Shown here: piece after piece, positions 16,439 through 27,974 of the stretch
Position numbering within the stretch: the stretch's first letter is position 1
Layout: the number at the start of each line of letters is the position of its first letter
Source of the DNA: an uncultured Pseudomonadota bacterium
GTDB taxonomy: Bacteria; Pseudomonadota; Gammaproteobacteria; Ga0077536
Assembly (NCBI GenBank): GCA_902597385.1
Contig: CACJXQ010000020.1
Location: forward strand, 1-35,141
Reading direction: 5' to 3'
DNA: 35,141 bases
The notes under the pieces: model-generated
Databases searched by the model: none
Told to the model about the DNA's origin: nothing
Seen by the model: the letters and a program-made list of their open reading frames with translations, nothing else
Translations under genes and position numbers: made by a program

Positions 16439-17776
16439 ATGGATTATTACAAATCCGCTCGATACGTCATCATAGGCGCTGGAATTCATGGCCTAAGCAC
16501 TGCCTATCATCTTGCTCTCGAGCTAAAGGCGAAAGGAAAAGGAGATGGGTCAGATATTCTGGTGCTTGATAAAGGAGGGATAGCGGCCGGAGCTTCTGGC
16601 ATTGCTTGTGGAGTAATAAGAAATAATTATTTTCAACCTGCGATGCGAGAACTGATGCTACATTCAGTTGAGGTGTGGGAAAGCGATGCTGAAACTTTTA
16701 GTTACCACCCCGTAGGTTATCTTCAAATTTCTCCTGAAAGCATGAGAGAAGATGTAGCTCAGATTCACTCGCAACAGAAAGATATAGGCTATGAATCTGT
16801 TTTCGTGGAGGGGAAAAAACCCTCTACCGAATATATGAAAAACATGCTCGATGACTGGCAAGCTGAAGGAATAACCTCTGTTTTGCATGAAAAAAGGGGC
16901 GGTTATGCTAACAATTCGAAATCCATTTATGGGCTTGCTGGCAAGGCCGAAGAACTTGGAGTTCGAATCCTGACAGGAATCACAGTCACAGGATTTGAAC
17001 TGGGACAACAGACAGACAGCATTAAAAGCATAGAAACTGACCGAGGGGCGATAGAATGTGATTACACCGTAATAAGCGCGGGACCGTGGATAAAGGGTCT
17101 TTGGGAAAGTCTTGGGTTACCAAAAGACATTTCGCTTAAGCTCCAAGATGGAACAACTAAGACTGTACCGATGTGGGTTTATTGGTCCTTGCAAGAAGGT
17201 ACTCTCGGAGTGGATCCTAACCTCCAAAAAACCAATGATGGCAAAATGCCTCCCGTAATACACCTTGATTCTGATGCGATTCTTTTGGGGGAGGATGGTG
17301 AGGAGGTCACCACGGAGATGTGGGGAATTTACTACAAGCCTGATTTTCACTTCAATGGCATACAAGGTGGCTCTGCTCCTTATGTAGTAAAAACTCACCC
17401 CGATAAGGTATCGGTGGACCCGTACGGGCCTGCATCGCCCGATTTTGTTGTAGGCCCTGACTTTGCCTATATGTGGTGCTCCGCCTTAGCGCATTGCCAG
17501 AAAAGGTTCGAAGGAAAATACGAGTTGTATAAAAAGGAACCCTCCGGCGGCATAGGATGCTTTACTCCTGATTCTTTCCCGATCTTCGACGTTTTCAAAG
17601 ACAATTGCTTCGTAATAGCAGATTCTAACCATGGATACAAAATGATCGGTGTAGGGAAACTAGTTGCCAACAAAATAATGGGAACCAATTCTAAACTTCT
17701 ACAACCCTTCAGGTTCTCGCGATACGCCGAAGGTGACTTACACCCTATTTCGAATAGTCCTTTCCCTTGGAGTTAA
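16439..17776 (+). CDS. FAD-dependent oxidoreductase of the DAO/SoxB-like family heading the cluster
   Basis: This 445-residue soluble flavoprotein has an N-terminal Rossmann motif YVIIGAGIHGLSTAYHLA (residues about 9-26) and a C-terminal FAD-closing segment FVIADSNHGYKMIGVGK. The stretch AAGASGIACGVIRNNYF parallels GAGNTGRNTTIIRSNYL of the SoxB-like protein at 22945, so the two are paralogues. However, where SoxB proteins have RHDAVAWG with the covalent-FMN histidine, this protein reads NNSKSIYG, so that attachment site is absent. It is the first gene of the run leading to gmaS, 72 bases ahead of it. It probably oxidises an N-methyl or secondary amine acid; the exact substrate is not visible. 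The ATG has AAGGA upstream. Confidence 0.8.
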   Translation: MDYYKSARYVIIGAGIHGLSTAYHLALELKAKGKGDGSDILVLDKGGIAAGASGIACGVIRNNYFQPAMRELMLHSVEVWESDAETFSYHPVGYLQISPESMREDVAQIHSQQKDIGYESVFVEGKKPSTEYMKNMLDDWQAEGITSVLHEKRGGYANNSKSIYGLAGKAEELGVRILTGITVTGFELGQQTDSIKSIETDRGAIECDYTVISAGPWIKGLWESLGLPKDISLKLQDGTTKTVPMWVYWSLQEGTLGVDPNLQKTNDGKMPPVIHLDSDAILLGEDGEEVTTEMWGIYYKPDFHFNGIQGGSAPYVVKTHPDKVSVDPYGPASPDFVVGPDFAYMWCSALAHCQKRFEGKYELYKKEPSGGIGCFTPDSFPIFDVFKDNCFVIADSNHGYKMIGVGKLVANKIMGTNSKLLQPFRFSRYAEGDLHPISNSPFPWS

Positions 17777-17848: not shown

Positions 17849-19321
17849 GTGAAAAAAACTGATCTAGAAAACTACGTTGAAAACCCAGAGCGAGAAGAAT
17901 TGATTCGAAAGGTTAGAAAAAAAATCGATGAACTGGGAATCAAGTACATCTACTACCAATTTATATCAGTCACTGGGAGAATTGTTGGAAAGGGCATTCC
18001 TGCTGACCACTGGGAGCGCACGGCAAATAGAGGCTTCCAACTAGTCTATGGTTCTACTGCAAATCTTTTTATTGACCGGCACGATGAATATATAGGATAC
18101 GGCCCCGAGGCAATGGAACTGGTCGGACTACCAGACCCGGACACCTTTTGCCAATTGCCTTGGGATAAAAGAGTGGCCAGGGTTTTTTGTGTCTGCTTTA
18201 GAAATCGAGAGGAACGAGAGAATGCAGGTGCTTTTTTAACATCAGACTGCAGAGGCAATCTTAAAAGGGCTCACAATATTTTTAAGGAACAGTTCGGTCT
18301 TGAATTCAGGGTCGGTACCGAGCCTGAGATGATGTGGTTAAAAAAAGGACCAGATGGAAAACCTGATGGTGGGGTAACTGAACCCTATTGTTACCACATA
18401 GATCAATTCGAGAGCCTAAGACCAGTTTTCATGCAAGTAATCGAGTACGCCCAAGCAATGGGGTTGGATATGATTCAAGGGGATCATGAAGATGCCCCTG
18501 GGCAACTAGAACTAAATTGGATGTTTGATGATGTGGTCAAAAATGCGGATCGACTATCAACCTACAGGCAAATTTGTGCTCAAGTAGCTAGGGAAAATAA
18601 TCTCATCGCATGTTTTATGTCTAAACCTTTCATGGGTGTTTCTGCTTCCGGTTGCCACACAAATATTTCACTCTGGAAAGGTGGTAAAGATGAACTCAAC
18701 AAACTACATAACGAACCCCTTCCAGGTCTTGACGAGGTCTTTACCTACCGAGTTAATGGAGAGAATCTTTTCATGCCAGATACTGATGATATCCAAAAAC
18801 CCGGCAAAGTTGGTTTGCAGTGCGTGGGGGGCATAGTCAAACATTTGGGAGCCTTAACGGCAATTGGTTGCTCTACTGTTAATTCTTACCGCAGACTTTG
18901 GGACACTGGTTTTTGGGCCCCAGTTTTTGCAGATTGGGGATTCCAGAACAGAACCACCGGACTGAGAATATCTGCACCGGGGCGTTTTGAATACAGAGCG
19001 GTAGATTCGATGGTTAACCCTTACCTTCTAGGTTCGGCCCTGCTTAAAGCTTTCGAGGATGGAATATCAAATGATATAGATCCTGGTGAGCCAGAGAATA
19101 GAAATATCTACGAAGCAATGGAGGCTGGAAAACTGGTAAAACGCCTTCCCATGTCCTTAGGTGATGCGCTTCAAAAGCTCGAAGAGGATGAGGTAATAAA
19201 AAGCGCGCTACCGGGGGACATGTACAAGGTTTATAAGTGGTACAAAAACGACGAATGGGAAAAATTTATGGCCACTGTGACAGACTGGGATCAAGAAATG
19301 TATCTTGATTGCCTACCCTAA
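17849..19321 (+). CDS. gmaS: Gamma-glutamylmethylamide synthetase / glutamine synthetase-like ligase
   Basis: This 490-residue protein is a glutamine-synthetase-family ligase. It has a beta-grasp N-domain and the catalytic barrel with FRVGTEPEMMW (153-163, metal-binding glutamates), GDHEDAPGQLELN (211-223), SASGCHTNISLW (265-276, His270 in the ATP/metal region) and RISAPGRFEYRAVDSMVNPYL near residue 375-395. No GlnA-type adenylylation tail is recognised. Placement directly before mgsABC and mgdABCD argues that it uses methylamine rather than ammonia: glutamate + methylamine + ATP gives gamma-glutamylmethylamide. A GlnT-type glutamine synthetase is the alternative. The GTG start at 17849 has GGAG nine bases upstream; no ATG fits better. 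Confidence 0.8.
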   Translation: MKKTDLENYVENPEREELIRKVRKKIDELGIKYIYYQFISVTGRIVGKGIPADHWERTANRGFQLVYGSTANLFIDRHDEYIGYGPEAMELVGLPDPDTFCQLPWDKRVARVFCVCFRNREERENAGAFLTSDCRGNLKRAHNIFKEQFGLEFRVGTEPEMMWLKKGPDGKPDGGVTEPYCYHIDQFESLRPVFMQVIEYAQAMGLDMIQGDHEDAPGQLELNWMFDDVVKNADRLSTYRQICAQVARENNLIACFMSKPFMGVSASGCHTNISLWKGGKDELNKLHNEPLPGLDEVFTYRVNGENLFMPDTDDIQKPGKVGLQCVGGIVKHLGALTAIGCSTVNSYRRLWDTGFWAPVFADWGFQNRTTGLRISAPGRFEYRAVDSMVNPYLLGSALLKAFEDGISNDIDPGEPENRNIYEAMEAGKLVKRLPMSLGDALQKLEEDEVIKSALPGDMYKVYKWYKNDEWEKFMATVTDWDQEMYLDCLP

Positions 19322-19342: not shown

Positions 19343-20281
19343 ATGTGTGGTATAGCAGGAGTAATGCACCGGGGGAAAACTTCGACCGTCGGTTCTGAGA
19401 TGACTACGATGTTAAAAGCCATGAAACATAGAGGGCCGGATTCCACCGGTTTCGCTTTATATCAAGAGTCAATGCCAAAGAATAAATTCGTCATGCGTTT
19501 TAAGGTCGCAGAGGGAAGCGAAGCTCAATCTGGCTTCGACATACAGAGCATTATGCAAGAGAGAATTCAAAAGGTAGACGCTCGATTGGATGAGCTAAAG
19601 GCGGTCGTAGAAAAAAAATCACAGGACACGATTTACGCTTGTCGGTATGAATTCGAATTTGACGGAAGTCTTAGAAAATTGGCGAATTATATCGAGGACC
19701 TGGAAGGCGTTGAAATTTTATCTATCGGGAAAGGACTTGAGTTAATCAAGGATTTAGGAGATGCAGATAATGTGTCTGACACTTATAATCTCAGAGGCTT
19801 TTCTGGTACTCACGCGATAGGACACACTAGGATGGCTACTGAATCGGATGTAGATATAAGATCTGCTCACCCCTACTGGGCGTATCCGTTTTCGGACGTA
19901 TCCGTAGTTCATAACGGTCAGCTAACTAACTATTGGACGAAACGAAGGGAACTAGAACGCAAGGGGCATAGATTTATGTCAAACTGCGACTCCGAGCTAG
20001 TAGCAGTTTACATAGCAGATTCAATCGACCAAGGTAAGAGTCTTGAACAGTCTATGAACGAATCTCTAACCGAATTAGATGGTGTTTTTACCTACCTTAT
20101 AGCAACCTCTGACCAATTGGGAATGGCTAAAGACACCATGGCGGCCAAGCCAATGGTCTTGTACGAAAGCGATGAAATCGTCGCACTTGCTTCCGAAGAG
20201 GTTGCAATCAGGACAATTTTTGAGGGTGAAATAGATACAACCGACCCTTACGAGGGGGAAGTCAGAGTTTGGCAGGCTTAG
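19343..20281 (+). CDS. mgsA: N-methylglutamate synthase subunit A (class II glutamine amidotransferase domain, GlxB-like)
   Basis: MgsA is the amide-processing subunit of N-methylglutamate synthase and is homologous to the amidotransferase domain of glutamate synthase. The 312-residue protein begins MCGIAGV, so Cys2 is the N-terminal nucleophile after Met removal. Other class II signatures are HRGPDSTG (29-36), GHTRMATESDVDIRSAHPY and VHNGQLTNYW. Substrate release from gamma-glutamylmethylamide would give methylamine for the partner subunits. The gene starts 21 bases after gmaS, and its TAG lies 14 bases before the preferred mgsB start. The GlxB name is used for homologues in rhizobia. Confidence 0.85.
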   Translation: MCGIAGVMHRGKTSTVGSEMTTMLKAMKHRGPDSTGFALYQESMPKNKFVMRFKVAEGSEAQSGFDIQSIMQERIQKVDARLDELKAVVEKKSQDTIYACRYEFEFDGSLRKLANYIEDLEGVEILSIGKGLELIKDLGDADNVSDTYNLRGFSGTHAIGHTRMATESDVDIRSAHPYWAYPFSDVSVVHNGQLTNYWTKRRELERKGHRFMSNCDSELVAVYIADSIDQGKSLEQSMNESLTELDGVFTYLIATSDQLGMAKDTMAAKPMVLYESDEIVALASEEVAIRTIFEGEIDTTDPYEGEVRVWQA

Positions 20282-20282
20282 T

Positions 20283-20289
20283 AAAGGAG
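20283..20289 (+). promoter_or_regulatory. Ribosome-binding site selecting the TTG start of mgsB
   Basis: AAAGGAG sits six bases before TTG at 20296 and directly after the mgsA stop. It supports initiation at 20296 rather than at the in-frame TTG at 20269, which lies inside mgsA with no site. It also argues against ATG at 20308, whose only purine-rich element is two bases away. Confidence 0.7.
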
Positions 20290-20295
20290 ACACCA

Positions 20296-21111
20296 TTGAA
20301 AGAGGAAATGAGATCAGAGCTTCTGAAAGGAAGAACACAACAAAGATTTTTTTCATCGGAAGAAGGTGAGGCTCTTGAGCAACCGTTTGCGCACCCTGTC
20401 AATTTTGAGTCTGAGGCTGAACTCGACGCGACTAATTTATCAGCCCGTGAAATCAATGAAAAAATCCGGGAATTAATGTTGCAGGGGATGGGCTCAATAA
20501 GATTGAAAAACCCAGGCGCGAAGCACAGCTTGGCTGTGGGCATTCTTAATCGGCTCAATCTTACCATAGAAGGTAGCCTAGGCTATTTTGGACTTGGCTT
20601 AATTGATGGCCCTAATGTAGTGGTCGAAGGCAGAGTGGGATGGTCTTGCGGAGAAAATATGATGGCTGGAACGGTGGTTATTAAGAAAAATGCTGGCTCC
20701 ACCTTTGGCGCTGCACTCCGCGGAGGAGACTTGGTATGTCATGGTGATGTAGGGTCCAGAACAGGCATCGATCAGAAGGGTGGGACCATTATAGTGGGCG
20801 GCAAAACTGGGGCATTCTCCGGGTTCATGATGCAGCGCGGTAGAATGATTATCTTAGGGGACTCCGGCCAAAACTTAGGAGACTCCATGTATGACGGCAC
20901 GATTTATGTGGGCGGGAGTATTGAGAGCCTCGGAGTTGATGCTGTAGAGGAAGAACTCACTAAAGAGGATGTCAGCTGGCTAAATAGGAAACTTTCACTT
21001 TATGGACTAGAGACCCAAATTAACCTGAATCAAATTAAGAAAATTGTATCCGGAAAACAACTCTGGAATTACGATAGTTTAGAACCTAGCGAGAAAAAGC
21101 TTGTCTTATAA
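20296..21111 (+). CDS. mgsB: N-methylglutamate synthase subunit B (GXGXG domain, GlxC-like)
   Basis: MgsB corresponds to the C-terminal beta-helix (GXGXG) domain of glutamate synthase, which bridges the amidotransferase and FMN sites. The 271-residue product (from TTG 20296) has a short N-terminal extension, then repeated glycine-rich turns such as GLGLIDGPNVVVEGRVGWSC, GAALRGGDLVCHGDVGSRTG, GGTIIVGGKTGAFSGFMMQRG and GDSMYDGTIYVGG. These repeats are the hallmark of the fold. The reading frame extends upstream to TTG 20269 (280 residues), but the Shine-Dalgarno favours 20296. It is 23 bases ahead of mgsC, consistent with a single heterotrimeric enzyme. Confidence 0.85.
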   Translation: MKEEMRSELLKGRTQQRFFSSEEGEALEQPFAHPVNFESEAELDATNLSAREINEKIRELMLQGMGSIRLKNPGAKHSLAVGILNRLNLTIEGSLGYFGLGLIDGPNVVVEGRVGWSCGENMMAGTVVIKKNAGSTFGAALRGGDLVCHGDVGSRTGIDQKGGTIIVGGKTGAFSGFMMQRGRMIILGDSGQNLGDSMYDGTIYVGGSIESLGVDAVEEELTKEDVSWLNRKLSLYGLETQINLNQIKKIVSGKQLWNYDSLEPSEKKLVL

Positions 21112-21134: not shown

Positions 21135-22472
21135 GTGTCAAATGATGATGAAAAATATCTATTAGGTAAAAGCCCGATTTTTACTCCGGAGGTCATTAAT
21201 GACATCCACGTGAAAGCTGAATTGGGAAGATACCGAATGCGGGGCTTTTCGATGTTCAAGAAAGTGCCCGGCTGGGATGAATTAACATTCTTACCCGGAA
21301 CGTTAACTAGGTTTGTTATAGAAGGCTATCGGGAGAAATGTGAAACCAAAACAATCATAGGTCCTCGGGCAAAAAGGCCGCTAGAACTTGACATTCCAGT
21401 CTATATCACAGGCATGAGTTTTGGAGCACTATCCTACGAAGCAAAGACCGCACTCGCCAGAGGGGCTACACTCGCGGGAACTGCTACCTGCTCTGGGGAA
21501 GGTGGCATGATCCCAGACGAGAGACGCTATTCTGAGAAATGGTTTTACCAATGCATTCAATCTAGATATGGATTCAACCCACAGCACCTTCGATTAGCTG
21601 ATGCTTGTGAATTTTTTATTGGTCAAGGGTGCAAAGTCGGCCTAGGTGGGCACTTAATGGGTCAAAAGGTCACTGATCAGGTAGCTGAGATGAGATCTTT
21701 ACCGGCAGGCATAGATCAACGTAGTCCTGCTAGACACCCAGATTGGTTAGGTCCAGACGACTTAGCATTAAAAATTGAGGAAATTCGAGAGGCTACCAAT
21801 TGGGAGATACCAATACAGTTGAAACTTGGTGCCGCCAGAGTTTACGACGACGTTAGAATGGCCGCGAAGACCGACCCAGATTCTATTTATATAGATGGAA
21901 TGGAAGGAGGCACGGGTGCAGGCCCTCATCTAGCCTCTGAAGAAACCGGGGTACCAGGAATAGCAGCAATAAGACAAGCTAGAAAAGCACTCGAAGACGT
22001 AGGCAAAAGCGGGGAAATTACCCTGATCTATGCTGGTGGGATAAGGAATGGCGGAGATGTAGCCAAAGCCTTAGCGCTAGGGGCAGACGCCATAGCTATC
22101 GGACACTCTTCTATGATGGCCTTGAACTGCAATAAAGACATCCCAGAAGCGAACTACGAGGCAGAGATGGGAGTAAGCGCCGGAAACTGTTATCACTGTC
22201 ACACTGGCAGATGTCCTGTTGGAATAGCTACTCAAGACCCCGCTTTACGGGCCCGGCTTGATCCTGATGAGGCCGCAGAAAGAGTCTATAATTTCTTACA
22301 TTGTCTTACTATTGAATGCCAAATGATGGCTAGAGCCTGTGGGAAAACTAATATCCACTCTTTGGAACCTGAGGACCTAGCTGCCCTCACTATGGAAGCT
22401 TCAGCTATGGCTCAAGTGCCTTTAGCAGGCACCCAAGTTACTGTAGGAAGACCTGACATGAACAGGTTTTGA
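21135..22472 (+). CDS. mgsC: N-methylglutamate synthase subunit C (FMN/Fe-S glutamate-synthase-like, GlxD-like)
   Basis: MgsC carries the synthase core of the glutamate-synthase type. The 445-residue protein shows the FMN-barrel motifs DIPVYITGMSFGALS (86-100), CSGEGGMIPDER (119-130), IYIDGMEGGTGAGP (251-264) and YAGGIRNGGDVAKALALGADAIAIGH (299-324). The iron-sulfur motif is CYHCHTGRCPVGIA with Cys352, Cys355 and Cys360, spaced C-x2-C-x4-C. This subunit should form N-methylglutamate from methylamine and 2-oxoglutarate with external reductant. The start is GTG 21135, with GAGG about ten bases upstream and no nearby ATG in the frame. Confidence 0.88.
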   Translation: MSNDDEKYLLGKSPIFTPEVINDIHVKAELGRYRMRGFSMFKKVPGWDELTFLPGTLTRFVIEGYREKCETKTIIGPRAKRPLELDIPVYITGMSFGALSYEAKTALARGATLAGTATCSGEGGMIPDERRYSEKWFYQCIQSRYGFNPQHLRLADACEFFIGQGCKVGLGGHLMGQKVTDQVAEMRSLPAGIDQRSPARHPDWLGPDDLALKIEEIREATNWEIPIQLKLGAARVYDDVRMAAKTDPDSIYIDGMEGGTGAGPHLASEETGVPGIAAIRQARKALEDVGKSGEITLIYAGGIRNGGDVAKALALGADAIAIGHSSMMALNCNKDIPEANYEAEMGVSAGNCYHCHTGRCPVGIATQDPALRARLDPDEAAERVYNFLHCLTIECQMMARACGKTNIHSLEPEDLAALTMEASAMAQVPLAGTQVTVGRPDMNRF

Positions 22473-22516: not shown

Positions 22517-22918
22517 ATGACAGAAAAGAAAAATCTAAAAGATATCGATCATTATCTGAAATCGGACGGTGTAGATTCCGAGAGAGAAAAAATGATCGGA
22601 CAGACCATCGGATATCGATATGACGTAAATCTCCTACCCGACTATGACCGACTCACTCCCTTTTTAGCAAAATATATGGAATTCATGGGATGGAAAGATC
22701 TGAACTGGTTAGAGGACGTGCACATGGGGTATGAGGAAGGCCGAGCCGCGGTTTTTGATAGAAACATCAATGGTTGGGTCACCGTACCTCCCGAAATAGA
22801 TTTGCCTGATAATCAGCAAGACCGAGACATGATAGCTCGAGAGTTACTCATAAAATTTCAGATGTCAGAGACACATCCTCTGGTGGACCTGAGGAAAACT
22901 TATGGGAAATTCATATAA
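22517..22918 (+). CDS. Unrecognised 133-residue protein embedded in the cluster
   Basis: I do not recognise this protein. It is soluble and acidic, with no cysteine, no membrane segment and no nucleotide-binding motif. It has a charged N-terminal part (EKKNLKDIDHYLKSDG), a central tyrosine/tryptophan-rich region (YMEFMGWKDLNWLEDVHMGYEEG, about residues 53-75), a short beta-like GWVTVPPEID, and a helical C-terminus ending LRKTYGKFI. It lies 44 bases after mgsC and 26 before mgdA, in the same direction, with AGGA upstream of its ATG. Its location between the synthase and dehydrogenase subunits suggests an accessory subunit, assembly factor or regulator of one of them. That is inference only. 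Confidence 0.8.
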   Translation: MTEKKNLKDIDHYLKSDGVDSEREKMIGQTIGYRYDVNLLPDYDRLTPFLAKYMEFMGWKDLNWLEDVHMGYEEGRAAVFDRNINGWVTVPPEIDLPDNQQDRDMIARELLIKFQMSETHPLVDLRKTYGKFI

Positions 22919-22944: not shown

Positions 22945-24186
22945 ATGTCTCTTAGACTCCTCAAATATGGTTTTATAGAGGGCCATTCAGAAGAAAAGTG
23001 GATCCCTCGCCCAACATCACTAAAAAAAAAATATGATGTAGTGATAATAGGCGGAGGTGGGCATGGCTTAGCATGTGCCTATTACTTGGCTAAAGAACAC
23101 AATATCACTAATGTAGCTGTGCTAGAAAAAAATTATGTCGGTGCAGGCAATACTGGACGCAACACGACTATCATACGCTCGAACTATTTAACCCCCGAAG
23201 GAGTGAGTTTTTACAATGAGAGCTTGAGGCTTTTCAAAAATTTATCCGAAGAGCTAGAAACTAATATTTTCTACTCCGAAAGAGGCCACTTTACTCTAGC
23301 ACATAGTGAATCTACTCTACGAACCGCGAGATGGAGAGCGGAAGTAAATAAGCACCTATCAGTTAAAAGCGAGGTCGTTGGCCCTGAAGAAGTAAAAAAA
23401 GCCTGTCCTGAAATAGACCTGAGCTGCGGAGGTAACCATGCCATTGAGGGAGCTTTGTTTCATGCCCCAGGAGCAGTTGCTAGACACGATGCTGTGGCAT
23501 GGGGATACGCAAAAAATGCGAGCGCCCTGGGGGTTGAAATACACCAAAATACAGAAGCCCTAGACGTAAAGATTGAATCTGGTGAGGTTAAGGCGGTAAA
23601 AACCTCCAATGGTGAAATAGAGACTAATGTAGTACTTTCTGCAGTAGCTGGTTACACCCCTAGACTGTTGAATTTAGTTGGTCTGCGGTCACCAATAGAT
23701 ATTTATCCTTTACAAGCTTGTGTCACCGAACCCATAAAGCCGTGGTTAAACACAATAATAGTCTCCGGAAGCTTACATTTGTACATTAGCCAAAGTGCTA
23801 GAGGAGAATTAGTGATGGGCGCCTCCGTCGATCCGATGGAATTGCACAACAACAGGTCAACATTTGAATTTGTATCCGATTTAAGCGATCAGATCCTCGA
23901 TCTATTTCCCTTTCTAAGCTCTCTGAAAATAAATCGCCAATGGGCTGGCATGGCAGATATGACGCCGGATTTCGCGCCAGTCATGGGCACCACTCCCGTC
24001 AAAGGTTTTTTTCTAGATGCTGGATGGGGCACTTGGGGTTTTAAAGCAACCCCTGTTAGTGGAAAAACTATGGCTAACACCATTGCGAGGAATTCTGACG
24101 ATGCTTTAATAAAAAGCTTCAATCTGGACAGGTTCGAAAACTTCCAGCTGGTTGGAGAGAAAGGCGCTGCCGCCGTTGGACACTAA
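22945..24186 (+). CDS. mgdA: N-methylglutamate dehydrogenase subunit A / sarcosine oxidase beta-like
   Basis: This subunit oxidises the N-methyl amino acid. The 413-residue protein has the FAD motif YDVVIIGGGGHGLACAYYLA (30-48), GAGNTGRNTTIIRSNYL (66-82) typical of SoxB, and GAVARHDAVAWGYAK (176-190). In SoxB a histidine in that last motif binds FMN covalently; here it is His181. The C-terminal end shows WAGMADMTPDFAPVMG and GFFLDAGWGTWGFKATP. Homologues include the beta subunit of heterotetrameric sarcosine oxidase. N-methylglutamate rather than sarcosine is proposed from the gmaS-mgsABC genes upstream. It is followed 19 bases later by the delta subunit gene. Confidence 0.88.
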   Translation: MSLRLLKYGFIEGHSEEKWIPRPTSLKKKYDVVIIGGGGHGLACAYYLAKEHNITNVAVLEKNYVGAGNTGRNTTIIRSNYLTPEGVSFYNESLRLFKNLSEELETNIFYSERGHFTLAHSESTLRTARWRAEVNKHLSVKSEVVGPEEVKKACPEIDLSCGGNHAIEGALFHAPGAVARHDAVAWGYAKNASALGVEIHQNTEALDVKIESGEVKAVKTSNGEIETNVVLSAVAGYTPRLLNLVGLRSPIDIYPLQACVTEPIKPWLNTIIVSGSLHLYISQSARGELVMGASVDPMELHNNRSTFEFVSDLSDQILDLFPFLSSLKINRQWAGMADMTPDFAPVMGTTPVKGFFLDAGWGTWGFKATPVSGKTMANTIARNSDDALIKSFNLDRFENFQLVGEKGAAAVGH

Positions 24187-24205
24187 CCGTCTATAGACTA
24201 CGATT

Positions 24206-24442
24206 ATGAAGTTTATCCAATGTCCCCATTTAGGTAAGAGACCAATAACCGAATTCGACTTTGGCGGGGTTTTAGAGCCCGAGCCCGAGGTACTAGAGAT
24301 TCCTCCTGGAAGGTGGGCCTTCGAACAGGACAGTCGTCCAATGACAAGACGAGAATGGTGGTTTCATAGATCCTCAAAACAGTGGTTTCTGGTAGAGCGC
24401 AACACCAAGACAAATGAAACAAAATTGATTAGTGAAACATGA
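24206..24442 (+). CDS. mgdB: N-methylglutamate dehydrogenase subunit B / sarcosine oxidase delta-like, zinc site incomplete
   Basis: The 78-residue protein is a short SoxD/MgdB-type subunit. It begins MKFIQCPHLGKRPITEFDFGG, parallel to the family's CPYCGPR...EF..GG, and ends with FHRSSKQWFLVERNTKT, parallel to RHxxGCxxFFNxxRDT. In sarcosine oxidase delta a zinc ion is held by two cysteines, a histidine and a third cysteine. Here Cys6 and one His remain, but the second Cys is Leu9 and the third is Lys. The subunit may therefore not bind zinc, or bind it differently. It overlaps mgdC by four bases (ATGA), so synthesis is coupled. Identity rests on both motifs and gene order. Confidence 0.82.
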   Translation: MKFIQCPHLGKRPITEFDFGGVLEPEPEVLEIPPGRWAFEQDSRPMTRREWWFHRSSKQWFLVERNTKTNETKLISET

Positions 24443-27300
24443 AATCTTATCGACTAGCACCTCAATCAGACGAATGGATTAACAGACAATCAAAAGTGCA
24501 ATTCATTTTTGAAGGAAAAGAAATATCGTGTTTTGAAGGAGACACGATAACTAGCGCCCTGGCCGCTTCAGGACTTTCGCAAATGGGCAGGAGTTTTAAG
24601 TACCATCGTTCAAGAGGGATACTTTCCCTGGCCAATCATGATGCCAATATTTTAGTTCAGACTGACGAGGAGACAAATATAAGAGCAGATGTTACCAGCC
24701 CTATGAAAGGAGCTCATTACCGTGCAGTGAATACTTTTGGGAGACTCACTCTAGATTATGCGCACATCATTGAAAAATTGGCACCCTTTCTACCTGTTGG
24801 CTTTTATTACAAAGCATTTTACAAACCTCGAATACTATTTCCCTATTGGGAAAAGTTAATCCGAAATCTTGCCGGACTCGGAAAGATAAGCGAAAACCAT
24901 ACTCGTTATAGAAAACCAATCCGGAGTCTCTTTTGCGACATATTGGTTGTGGGAGGAGGACCATCAGGCATCGCTGCTGCAAACTCTTTGGTGGATTCCG
25001 GTAAAAAAGTGGTATTAGCAGATGAAAATCGCCACCTAGGAGGCAGTGGAGATTTTACTACAAGGGTGGGTTCTCCCGAGCACATCAAATTAAAAGAACA
25101 AGTTCAGAAACTTCAAAAATCCACCACTAACATTCTCTGTGGGCATTACGCGGCAGGCTTCTATGATGACAATACCGTACCCCTAATTGGAATGGCTGGG
25201 ATTACGTTAGTACATGCTAAATCAGTAATACTTGCTACTGGAGCATATGAGCAACCAGCAATTTTTCGAAATAATGATTTACCCGGAGTAATACTAAGCT
25301 CAGCAGTTAGTCGCCTCGTTAATCGTTACTCTGTTATGCCTTTCTCCAATCCTGTTATTATTGCCGGAAATCAAAACGGCTACGAAGTGGCGGCGAACCT
25401 AGCAGCTAGGGGCCTCAAAATACAGGCTATCCTAGATTTAGAAAATGCCGATGGCAGAGGCAAAGTAGGTGAAAAAGTAGAGAAGCTAGGCATAGATATA
25501 CTTTCAAACATTACCAATTTGGAGGCGATTGGAGGAGAAGGAAAAGTAAAAGCGATAAAATTCTCAATCGGCGAATCTAACAAATTAATTCGTTTGAACA
25601 CTGATGGAATCATAATGAGCGTGGGCTGGAGTCCGGCGATCAACCTACTAAAACAAGCAGGTGGGGATACAAGGTACTCGGACGAAGTGAATCAGCTAGA
25701 AATCACACGACATCCTGATGGAATCTTTACTGCAGGTAAGATCAGAGGCATTTACTCCGTCGAGGGAAGAATCAAAGACGGAGAAAGTTCAGCTGACGAA
25801 TGTTTAAAATATTTAAACCATAACGCATCTACTTTTAATCCCATACTAAGTGGCGAAAACCAGAATCACGCATATCCGATATTTCATCACACGAAGGGAA
25901 AGGAGTTCGTAGACTTTGACGAGGATCTCACTATAAAAGATATCAAAACCTCATTGAATGAAGGCTTTGACTCAGTTGAGCTTCTTAAACGCTTTACCAC
26001 TTTAGGGATGGGACCAAGCCAAGGTAAGACATCTAGCGTGAACGGAAATCGTATAATGGCTAAATTCTTGGGCACACCCGTAGCCACCGTTGGAACGACT
26101 ACTCCGAGACCATTTGTTCATCCAGTCCCTATTGGACACCTAGCAGGACAGAGAATAAGAAAACAGAAAAGAACTCCGGTAGATGATTATCACCGCTATC
26201 ACAACGCCGATATGAAAGAGACTGGGTCATGGGTTAGGCCAATGGCATACAATGCAAGCTCTTCACAAGAACAAATTCTACTCGAATACCAAGCGGTTAG
26301 AGAAAAAGTTGGAATTATCGATGTCTCCACTCTAGGAAAGATAGAGGTTTTTGGACCAGATGCTACTAAACTACTTGAATACGCCTATACCTGTAAGTTT
26401 GATAAATTAAAAATTGGAATGACTAGGTACATTTTCATGGTGGACGCGAGCGGTACCTTAGTAGATGACGGTGTGGCTGCAAAGTTGTCGGAACAGCATT
26501 ACTATTTTACGACGACGACGACTCACTCACACACCGTAATCAGACAGTTGCACTTATTCGTCGAGCAGCTCAAACTTAATGTGGAAATTATAGATAGAAC
26601 CAATTCTATTGGAGCTTTCAACCTAGCGGGACCCAAGTCCAAAGCACTTCTTAGCACATTCACAGAGACGGAATTAGACCAAGATGCTTTTCCCTACCTG
26701 GGAGTCCGGACAACTAGAGTAGCTGGAGTGGAGGCCCGCTTGATGAGAGTAGGTTTCGTCGGGGAATTGGGCTACGAAATCCACCTACCCTATCACTCTA
26801 TGGCTGATGTATGGGAGACCCTCATCCAAAAAGGACAAGAGTTTGGAATTCATCCGTTTGGTGTAGAAGCGCAGAGATTATTGAGGCTGGAAAAAGGCCA
26901 CCTGATTTTTGGACAAGACACGGATGGCAATACCAATCCCTTCGAAGTCGGACTAGGTTGGGGAGTAAACTTAAAAAAAGAACAATTTTATGGAAAACAT
27001 AGTCTTAAGTATTTAAAGGATGTAACTAAACGGAAACTAGTGGGATTTAAGTGTGATCTAGCGGACTCAAATTTCTTACTTGAGAATCATTTAGTCATAG
27101 AGAACTCACAAATAATGGGCAGAATTACAAGTGTAGGACAGAGCCCCACACTTGACCAAACAATCGGATTGGCGATGCTCGAGGAAGATCTTGGAGAAGG
27201 CGAAGTAATTTCCATAAAAGGTTCTAAGGGAAACACTATCAATGCGCATGTTACGACCACATCGTTCTATGATCCTAAGAACGAGAGACAAAATGTATGA
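24439..27300 (+). CDS. mgdC: N-methylglutamate dehydrogenase subunit C / sarcosine oxidase alpha-like
   Basis: This 953-residue large subunit has the SoxA layout. Residues about 18-90 form a ferredoxin-like region (FEGDTITSALAASGL, FKYHRSRGI) without iron-sulfur cysteines. A dinucleotide-binding domain begins at CDILVVGGGPSGIAAANSL (166-184), with a second Rossmann segment at PVIIAGNQNGYEVAANLA. A linker follows, and from about residue 590 there is a GcvT-like folate-binding domain (RPMAYNASSSQEQ, VDVSTLGKIEV-type segment, VGFVGELGYEIHLPY). That domain should pass the methylene group to tetrahydrofolate. Length agrees with the family at about 950-1000. Four-base overlaps join it to mgdB and mgdD. 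Confidence 0.92.
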   Translation: MKSYRLAPQSDEWINRQSKVQFIFEGKEISCFEGDTITSALAASGLSQMGRSFKYHRSRGILSLANHDANILVQTDEETNIRADVTSPMKGAHYRAVNTFGRLTLDYAHIIEKLAPFLPVGFYYKAFYKPRILFPYWEKLIRNLAGLGKISENHTRYRKPIRSLFCDILVVGGGPSGIAAANSLVDSGKKVVLADENRHLGGSGDFTTRVGSPEHIKLKEQVQKLQKSTTNILCGHYAAGFYDDNTVPLIGMAGITLVHAKSVILATGAYEQPAIFRNNDLPGVILSSAVSRLVNRYSVMPFSNPVIIAGNQNGYEVAANLAARGLKIQAILDLENADGRGKVGEKVEKLGIDILSNITNLEAIGGEGKVKAIKFSIGESNKLIRLNTDGIIMSVGWSPAINLLKQAGGDTRYSDEVNQLEITRHPDGIFTAGKIRGIYSVEGRIKDGESSADECLKYLNHNASTFNPILSGENQNHAYPIFHHTKGKEFVDFDEDLTIKDIKTSLNEGFDSVELLKRFTTLGMGPSQGKTSSVNGNRIMAKFLGTPVATVGTTTPRPFVHPVPIGHLAGQRIRKQKRTPVDDYHRYHNADMKETGSWVRPMAYNASSSQEQILLEYQAVREKVGIIDVSTLGKIEVFGPDATKLLEYAYTCKFDKLKIGMTRYIFMVDASGTLVDDGVAAKLSEQHYYFTTTTTHSHTVIRQLHLFVEQLKLNVEIIDRTNSIGAFNLAGPKSKALLSTFTETELDQDAFPYLGVRTTRVAGVEARLMRVGFVGELGYEIHLPYHSMADVWETLIQKGQEFGIHPFGVEAQRLLRLEKGHLIFGQDTDGNTNPFEVGLGWGVNLKKEQFYGKHSLKYLKDVTKRKLVGFKCDLADSNFLLENHLVIENSQIMGRITSVGQSPTLDQTIGLAMLEEDLGEGEVISIKGSKGNTINAHVTTTSFYDPKNERQNV

Positions 27301-27974
27301 ACACTGACAACACACATTCAAGCAAGCCCAGTGCCTCCCTACGAAGCCCTCTCCTAACTAATTTTCCCGCCAAACAATTTGAATATTGCACAAAATTCAG
27401 TATGTTAATAGCAGCGAAATCGCATAGTAACCAACAAAATGTAAATACAATTTACGATATCAGTCATCTTCCTAAATTCGTCCTGGCAGGTGCCGGCGCT
27501 GAGAAACTAATACCCCAATTCCTTGACTGTTCTCCACCCAAAATGTTTTGCGGTCACATTTTGGGTCATCAAGGAAAAATCGGAAGAATCGCAAAAAATC
27601 AATTCCTTTTGATAGATTCTCTAACAGGTGAATTTTGCGAAATTTTTAAAAAACTGGCTGAAAGCACCAACGAAGAAGCTATTTGTCTAAGAACAGATTT
27701 GGCCGAAATTGCACTAGTCGGAGAAATAGGTAGTACCGTGATAGCAGAGCTCACCGGTTTAAACGAGGCAGATATCGGATATGACGACTTCCTTCCTTGT
27801 GATTTAGCCGCGGCTGAGGTTTTTTTGTCGCTCTCAGAATTACCAAAGCCTCATTTTAGATTTCTGGTCCAATCATCAGATGTAAATTATGTTTTCCAAG
27901 CAATCGAAGAAATCAACCAAAGACTAGGAGGAATCAAAGAAGGCGCTCTTAGCTATCAAAGATATATAGGTTAA
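27297..27974 (+). CDS. mgdD: N-methylglutamate dehydrogenase subunit D / sarcosine oxidase gamma-like
   Basis: The 225-residue protein occupies the SoxG (gamma) position after mgdC, overlapping it by four bases (ATGA). It has no membrane segment or cofactor motif. The fold of SoxG is related to the GcvT/YgfZ family, and here the central part (AICLRTDLAEIALVGEIGSTVIAELTG) and the final VFQAIEEINQR resemble it, but conservation is low, as is common for this subunit. I base the call mainly on operon position, length and that resemblance. It is the last gene of the cluster; its stop is four bases from the stop of the convergent gene on the other strand, and no hairpin terminator is seen. Confidence 0.75.
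   Translation: MNTDNTHSSKPSASLRSPLLTNFPAKQFEYCTKFSMLIAAKSHSNQQNVNTIYDISHLPKFVLAGAGAEKLIPQFLDCSPPKMFCGHILGHQGKIGRIAKNQFLLIDSLTGEFCEIFKKLAESTNEEAICLRTDLAEIALVGEIGSTVIAELTGLNEADIGYDDFLPCDLAAAEVFLSLSELPKPHFRFLVQSSDVNYVFQAIEEINQRLGGIKEGALSYQRYIG

Follow-up and report, generated by a model that had tools for sequence, protein, structure and literature searches.

Methylated amines are a large pool of marine nitrogen, and the gmaS gene serves as a marker for the bacteria that consume them. The closest described relative of the system considered here is the canonical MgsABC of Methylobacterium, Methyloversatilis and Paracoccus, which comprises an amidotransferase subunit, a GXGXG subunit and an FMN synthase subunit and is usually accompanied by a gene of the GS family. 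The mgsABC genes of M. extorquens DM4 yielded N-methylglutamate in P. putida (PMC6237917), and in a published gene table for strain FAM5 the locus tags pass directly from MgsC to MgdA (PMC5023235). The hallmark of GmaS itself is the replacement of the Glu-flap glutamate by tryptophan together with the loss of the ammonia-site aspartate (PMC7948447). Two further systems are useful for comparison, namely GltB, the NADPH- or ferredoxin-dependent glutamate synthase, a single fused large chain with GltD, and the sarcosine-oxidase-like dehydrogenases, in which SoxD or the MgdB delta subunit is likewise a small accessory subunit encoded in a multi-subunit C1 flavoenzyme operon.

The window, that is the whole stretch of 35,141 nucleotides that was analysed, holds on its plus strand a locus that resembles the canonical one in architecture and departs from it in detail. 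It begins with an FAD-dependent DAO-family oxidoreductase (16439..17776), followed by a GS-like ligase of 490 aa (17849..19321) that is GmaS-like but belongs to a separate group; it scores 294 bits on the type III ligase model TIGR03105, under the curated cut-off of 469.6, and conserves the Glu-flap tryptophan (Trp356), with Asp or Asn at the Asp-equivalent position D76. Next come an MgsA-like class II glutamine amidotransferase subunit with an N-terminal catalytic Cys2 (19343..20281), a 280-aa MgsB-like GXGXG beta-helix subunit (20269..21111), which exceeds canonical MgsB by about 50 residues, and an MgsC-like FMN / Fe-S synthase subunit (21135..22472; Glu_synthase, PF01645). All three parts of the synthase architecture are present, a class II GATase with its N-terminal Cys, a GXGXG subunit and an FMN synthase domain, and the Met-Cys-Gly start of the MgsA-like proteins was seen in 82 of 82 copies. 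The FMN/3Fe-4S domain, the class II amidotransferase and the beta-helix domain are shared with GltB, but here they lie in three separate genes, and no GltD was found among the ORFs near them. Canonical MgsABC in turn has no fourth small gene, has lost the Fe-S cysteines in most members and goes with a GmaS of a different group. The cluster, given mgs and mgd gene names in the original prediction, is not of the canonical mgs type: identity to the canonical Methylobacterium genes is 53% for MgsC, 34% for MgsA, 37% for MgsB and 29% for the GS-like protein ('GmaS'), the Fe-S cysteines being kept in the window.

The fourth small gene is an ORF of 133 codons at 22517..22918 (+) with an ATG start, separated by 44 nt from the mgsC stop codon (22472) upstream of it and by 26 nt from the start of mgdA (22945) downstream. 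Its existence in line with the mgs genes, as predicted, is confirmed, and so is the description of its product as acidic, free of cysteine and containing Trp and Tyr (pI 4.9, 0 Cys, 3 Trp, 7 Tyr). A scan that took a single genome for each species showed at least 575 stretches from other species that code for relatives, and the best 80 were taken further as loci; an alignment of 72 diverse copies has 47 invariant columns, and against three relatives dN is 0.10–0.13 with dS saturated. These results show the ORF to be a genuine gene that purifying selection strongly constrains, and a chance ORF is ruled out. The protein was predicted to resemble nothing recognised, and this held: there was no match in Pfam (at threshold), NCBIfam or PHROGs, and PDB sequences gave marginal matches only (E 0.008–0.7), which look coincidental. 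We took as chance both a sub-threshold relation to TLAP2 (E 0.008), limited to a short stretch around a Phe-Asp-Arg hairpin, and one to OocQ (E 0.69), which vanished with the profile; the idea that the protein is a detached part of GltB was dropped, as the profile matched no GltB chain in the PDB. It founds a family of its own, outside all described families searched. Full-text searches of the open-licence literature turned up nothing on a fourth small gene, and an earlier mention elsewhere is possible.

The gene was not found on plasmids, though 247 plasmids carry MgsC of the canonical type. The sole copy from a viral collection (L210:4575-5342, IMG/VR contig IMGVR_UViG_3300006306_000019) lies at a contig end among phage-like genes, next to an ORF with a phage-protein-like beginning (MKQKILDAVRKHAEGNIARAKTNVDVFLNNPVG) that continues as the C-terminus of MgsC, the switch falling at the common residues PVG; we rejected its reading as a viral gene, since the contig looks like an assembly chimera. 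Another odd entry is a 1.2 Mb contig labelled 'Oceanobacillus sp. HTM 045' (L050, WNWL01000001.1), which has a Gram-positive label and yet a proteobacterial-type module; probably the label is wrong or the assembly mixed.

Elsewhere, the constant neighbour of the 133-aa gene is mgsC and not mgdA. Among 102 distinct copies, 101 have the former upstream on the same strand, at a median distance of 11 nt, and the one that lacks it (L062) sits right at a contig start; a downstream mgdA-like gene (at least 55% identity) occurs in only about six of the best 80 loci. The predicted position between synthase and dehydrogenase is therefore correct for the window's lineage and a few near relatives, where it is a local arrangement, and does not extend to most loci. 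In the window the mgdABCD / soxBDAG-like genes (22945..27974, +) are neighbours peculiar to this lineage rather than a constant part of the module, and SoxD (24206-24442; PF04267) is separate from the 133-aa gene; neither SoxD nor MgdB has any sequence relation to its product. As a side observation, the mgdD-like gene (27297-27974) has no Pfam or NCBIfam match and is 24–29% identical to relatives at the equivalent position, which fits a published comment on the unusual divergence of mgdD. Among 29 carrier genomes the upstream FAD oxidoreductase recurs in 26, and canonical MgsC, called at 73% identity or more to that of Methylobacterium sp. DM1, is also present in 13, the window's own genome included. 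That genome holds a second, canonical-type mgsABC lacking the Fe-S cysteines (G000:C24:8106-11034, L133), beside which no gmaS was recognised. Also encoded repeatedly near it are a GntR-family regulator, an ammonium transporter (Amt), FolD, formate-THF ligase, a glycine-betaine-type ABC transporter, a Tmm-like monooxygenase and a DUF1989-GcvT protein, placing the module in a C1 / methylated-amine gene context.

What sets the linked MgsC apart is its group of cysteines. In every sample, MgsC-like proteins were either 77–93% or at most 56% identical to that of the window, with no intermediates, and all 77 sequences linked to the 133-aa gene form one clade in the tree, outside that of characterised MgsC. 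Cys332, Cys352, Cys355 and Cys360 (Fe-S ligand region, 22128..22214, +) are retained in 77 of 77 linked sequences; the three 3Fe-4S ligands of GltB line up with C332, C355 and C360, and Cys352 is an extra fourth. In unlinked MgsC the motif is replaced in 39 of 42, typically by AYDDWHEGKDPAG (YDDWHEGKDP type), and this Cys-less group, to which Methylobacterium sp. DM1 and Paracoccus aminophilus belong, lacks the 133-aa gene. The remaining three (L098, L103 and L132) keep the cysteines but lack an adjacent small gene; in the tree they group with one another, away from both the small-gene-linked Fe-S type and the Cys-less group, and may represent a third type of MgsC. Two non-equivalent synthases have thus gone under one name, and a new protein family marks the Fe-S variant, an enzyme sharing the canonical MgsABC architecture and differing from it in clade and in Fe-S.

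The presence of the gene follows that of Fe-S type MgsC closely. Of 250 Alphaproteobacteria, 22 carry the 133-aa gene and 23 the Fe-S MgsC with an overlap of 22, the one exception (G605) having its mgsC at a contig edge, and none of the other 227 carries the gene. In a sample of 147 SAR11-like genomes of about 0.8–1.5 Mb, from the order of genome G636, all 67 carriers of Fe-S MgsC have the gene and none of the other 80 does, including four with the canonical MgsC type alone. The phylum and relatives samples agree in 7 of 7 cases, and Fisher tests gave 1e-30 and 1e-43, values that are descriptive only because the genomes are related. The gene is thus universal to the Fe-S type synthase and not a generic mgs/mgd component. 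The original prediction had proposed, as a check, to look for strict co-occurrence with mgs/mgd clusters, which is true of the Fe-S type (22/23 and 67/67) and untrue of canonical mgs clusters; absence from most clusters of the same type, which it had set against its own claim, likewise describes the canonical clusters, which lack the gene, and not the Fe-S type.

An AlphaFold2 monomer model built with 72 sequences (mean pLDDT 79) divides the protein into two parts. From residue 41 onward the blocks reach pLDDT 81–96, and this core (residues 43-133; 22643..22915, +) is predicted to consist of a helix, a three-stranded antiparallel sheet and two helices; Foldseek queries with two models (pLDDT 73 and 79) found no significant fold match in the PDB (best E 1.6–3.0, probability <0.1). 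Residues 21-40, in contrast, have a pLDDT of only about 53–59 in the isolated monomer and yet fall within the most invariant stretch, residues 21-42 (the REKMIGQTIGYRYDVNLLPDYD region; 22577..22642, +). The many invariant polar and aromatic residues include Y33, R34, Y35, D36, N38, D61, N63, E66, D67, H69, R82, N83, N85, Q101, R103, R108 and Q115. Segments that are held invariant and yet lack a fold when alone are typically arms that take shape on a partner; residues 21-42, invariant yet largely unstructured in a model otherwise confidently folded, may be such a docking arm. Within the operon only MgsC is more conserved, mean pairwise identities being 0.88 for MgsC, 0.78 for the 133-aa protein, 0.75 for the GS-like ligase, 0.71 for MgsB and 0.70 for both MgsA and the FAD enzyme. 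Mirror-tree correlations with the neighbours (r 0.54–0.76) single out no partner, because all genes of the operon are inherited together.

Taken with its strict co-occurrence with Fe-S MgsC, the natural reading of the 133-aa protein is that of an undescribed component, an accessory subunit or assembly factor, much as had been predicted. We lean, with confidence a little better than even, towards the view that it is the obligate fourth subunit of an enzyme otherwise built from three, a distinct Fe-S-containing relative of glutamate synthase whose product is N-methylglutamate or a closely similar N-alkylglutamate; what we infer are the physical contact, the standing of the protein as a subunit, the reaction and the electron donor of this synthase. 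MgsA would split a gamma-glutamyl amide, the freed amine would travel to MgsC, and the FMN/Fe-S centre there would couple it reductively to 2-oxoglutarate. The small protein would dock through its invariant 21-42 arm, the arm folding only upon binding, and its alpha/beta core would pack on MgsC and/or MgsB, completing the enzyme by forming some of the active-site wall or by offering the electron donor a docking face. A donor is to be expected of a glutamate-synthase-like enzyme with an Fe-S cluster, and the operon is without GltD; it is speculation that the small protein serves as the docking face, and that it holds an Fe-S cluster itself is unlikely, as it is free of cysteine. Counting against the subunit reading is the canonical synthase, whose MgsC is about 53% identical and which works without a small subunit (PMC6237917), and an assembly factor or regulator dedicated to the enzyme would explain strict operon co-occurrence just as well.

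The first of these, a maturation factor that binds apo-MgsC or MgsABC transiently, aids Fe-S/FMN insertion or heterotrimer assembly and is absent from the finished enzyme, seems to us possible though rather unlikely. It would account for co-occurrence being confined to Fe-S type MgsC and for the gene following the presence of the Fe-S ligands, and the lack of cysteine is as expected for a chaperone that is not a carrier. However, conservation above that of MgsA and MgsB is unusual in an assembly factor, and L098, L103 and L132 keep the Cys motif with no small gene adjoining, so that the cluster can exist alone and is not strictly dependent on such a gene nearby. We favour the permanent subunit over an assembly factor because the arm is invariant but unstructured and because conservation is second only to MgsC. 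A regulator switching the synthase or the GS-like ligase by nitrogen or amine supply is improbable: the gene does lie between the synthase genes and the ammonium transporter gene in many loci, but no ligand-binding family was recognised in Pfam, NCBIfam, PHROGs or the PDB, and single-function regulators are seldom kept by every carrier down to streamlined genomes, as is the case here. The many invariant polar and aromatic residues could also belong to a small enzyme in its own right, with an intermediate of the pathway, for instance an imine or gamma-glutamyl amide, as its substrate; this we rate slightly lower still, as no enzyme fold or family match was found and the need for it would have to be limited to the Fe-S type pathway. 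The scaffold coupling N-methylglutamate synthase to N-methylglutamate dehydrogenase that was originally proposed is very improbable, for its one support is the place of the gene between mgsC and mgdA in the window and near relatives, while mgdA adjoins so rarely, mgsC so constantly, and canonical mgs clusters and canonical mgd exist without the gene.

The SAR11-like genomes bear on the reaction of the Fe-S synthase. The stretch L199 (GC 0.32) from G636, a genome of 1.2 Mb in one contig, reads transporter, DUF1989-GcvT, 116-aa ORF, FAD enzyme, GS-like ligase, mgsABC, 133-aa gene, Amt and canonical GmaS. In an excerpt of the published SAR11 account, SAR11_1302-1304 of HTCC1062, within the 'glutamate-mediated methylamine' region, are given as a GBT-transporter, a GcvT-like aminomethyltransferase and a 'monomeric sarcosine oxidase' (PMC3160333). 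The first members of L199 agree with this order, with the module directly after, and the SAR11-like genomes are thus very probably Pelagibacterales. The same excerpt assigns glxBCD (SAR11_1313-1315) as the putative N-methylglutamate synthase, and mentions neither the small gene nor a second, Fe-S type synthase (PMC3160333).

Canonical GmaS (58–67% identity) is present in 66 of the 67 SAR11-like carriers, all but G781, and canonical MgsC in only 17, with 49 genomes having canonical GmaS and the Fe-S type as sole synthase. The same-genus relatives G678 and G690, which have no module, lack GmaS too, and G747, with GmaS and no module, has the canonical synthase. Since it is the sole synthase beside canonical GmaS in those 49 genomes, the Fe-S enzyme probably performs the N-methylglutamate step or a very similar one; against this, its own GS-like partner is just 29% identical to GmaS. 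A second amine substrate for the module is possible, as the GS-like ligase keeps the GmaS-type Trp but varies between Asp and Asn. In a broader reading, which we offer tentatively and hold to be somewhat doubtful, most methylamine-using SAR11-type marine bacteria would have given up the canonical synthase for a different enzyme, reductive and Fe-S-containing, whose four subunits are MgsABC and the small protein with its new fold, and which comes with a GS-like ligase and an FAD oxidoreductase of its own. If true, the SAR11 pathway as written rests on the wrong enzyme or misses a parallel amine route.

In most SAR11-like carriers examined, then, the only synthase comes always with an undescribed protein, and pathway assignments based on BLAST merit re-examination. 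The 133-aa gene offers a clean marker by which the sequences of the two synthase types can be told apart in metagenomes, and biochemistry gains a target in the need of the Fe-S enzyme for the small protein and in the identity of the electron donor. A second undescribed family of about 190 aa, one scanned member of which had no Pfam match, lies near the module in 26 of the 62 neighbourhoods examined and is absent from the window; it has the conserved motifs WQCR.RQ and FNP.LP...GF.PDW, and its members include L078:9234-9824, L035:11154-11744 and L197:9525-10115.
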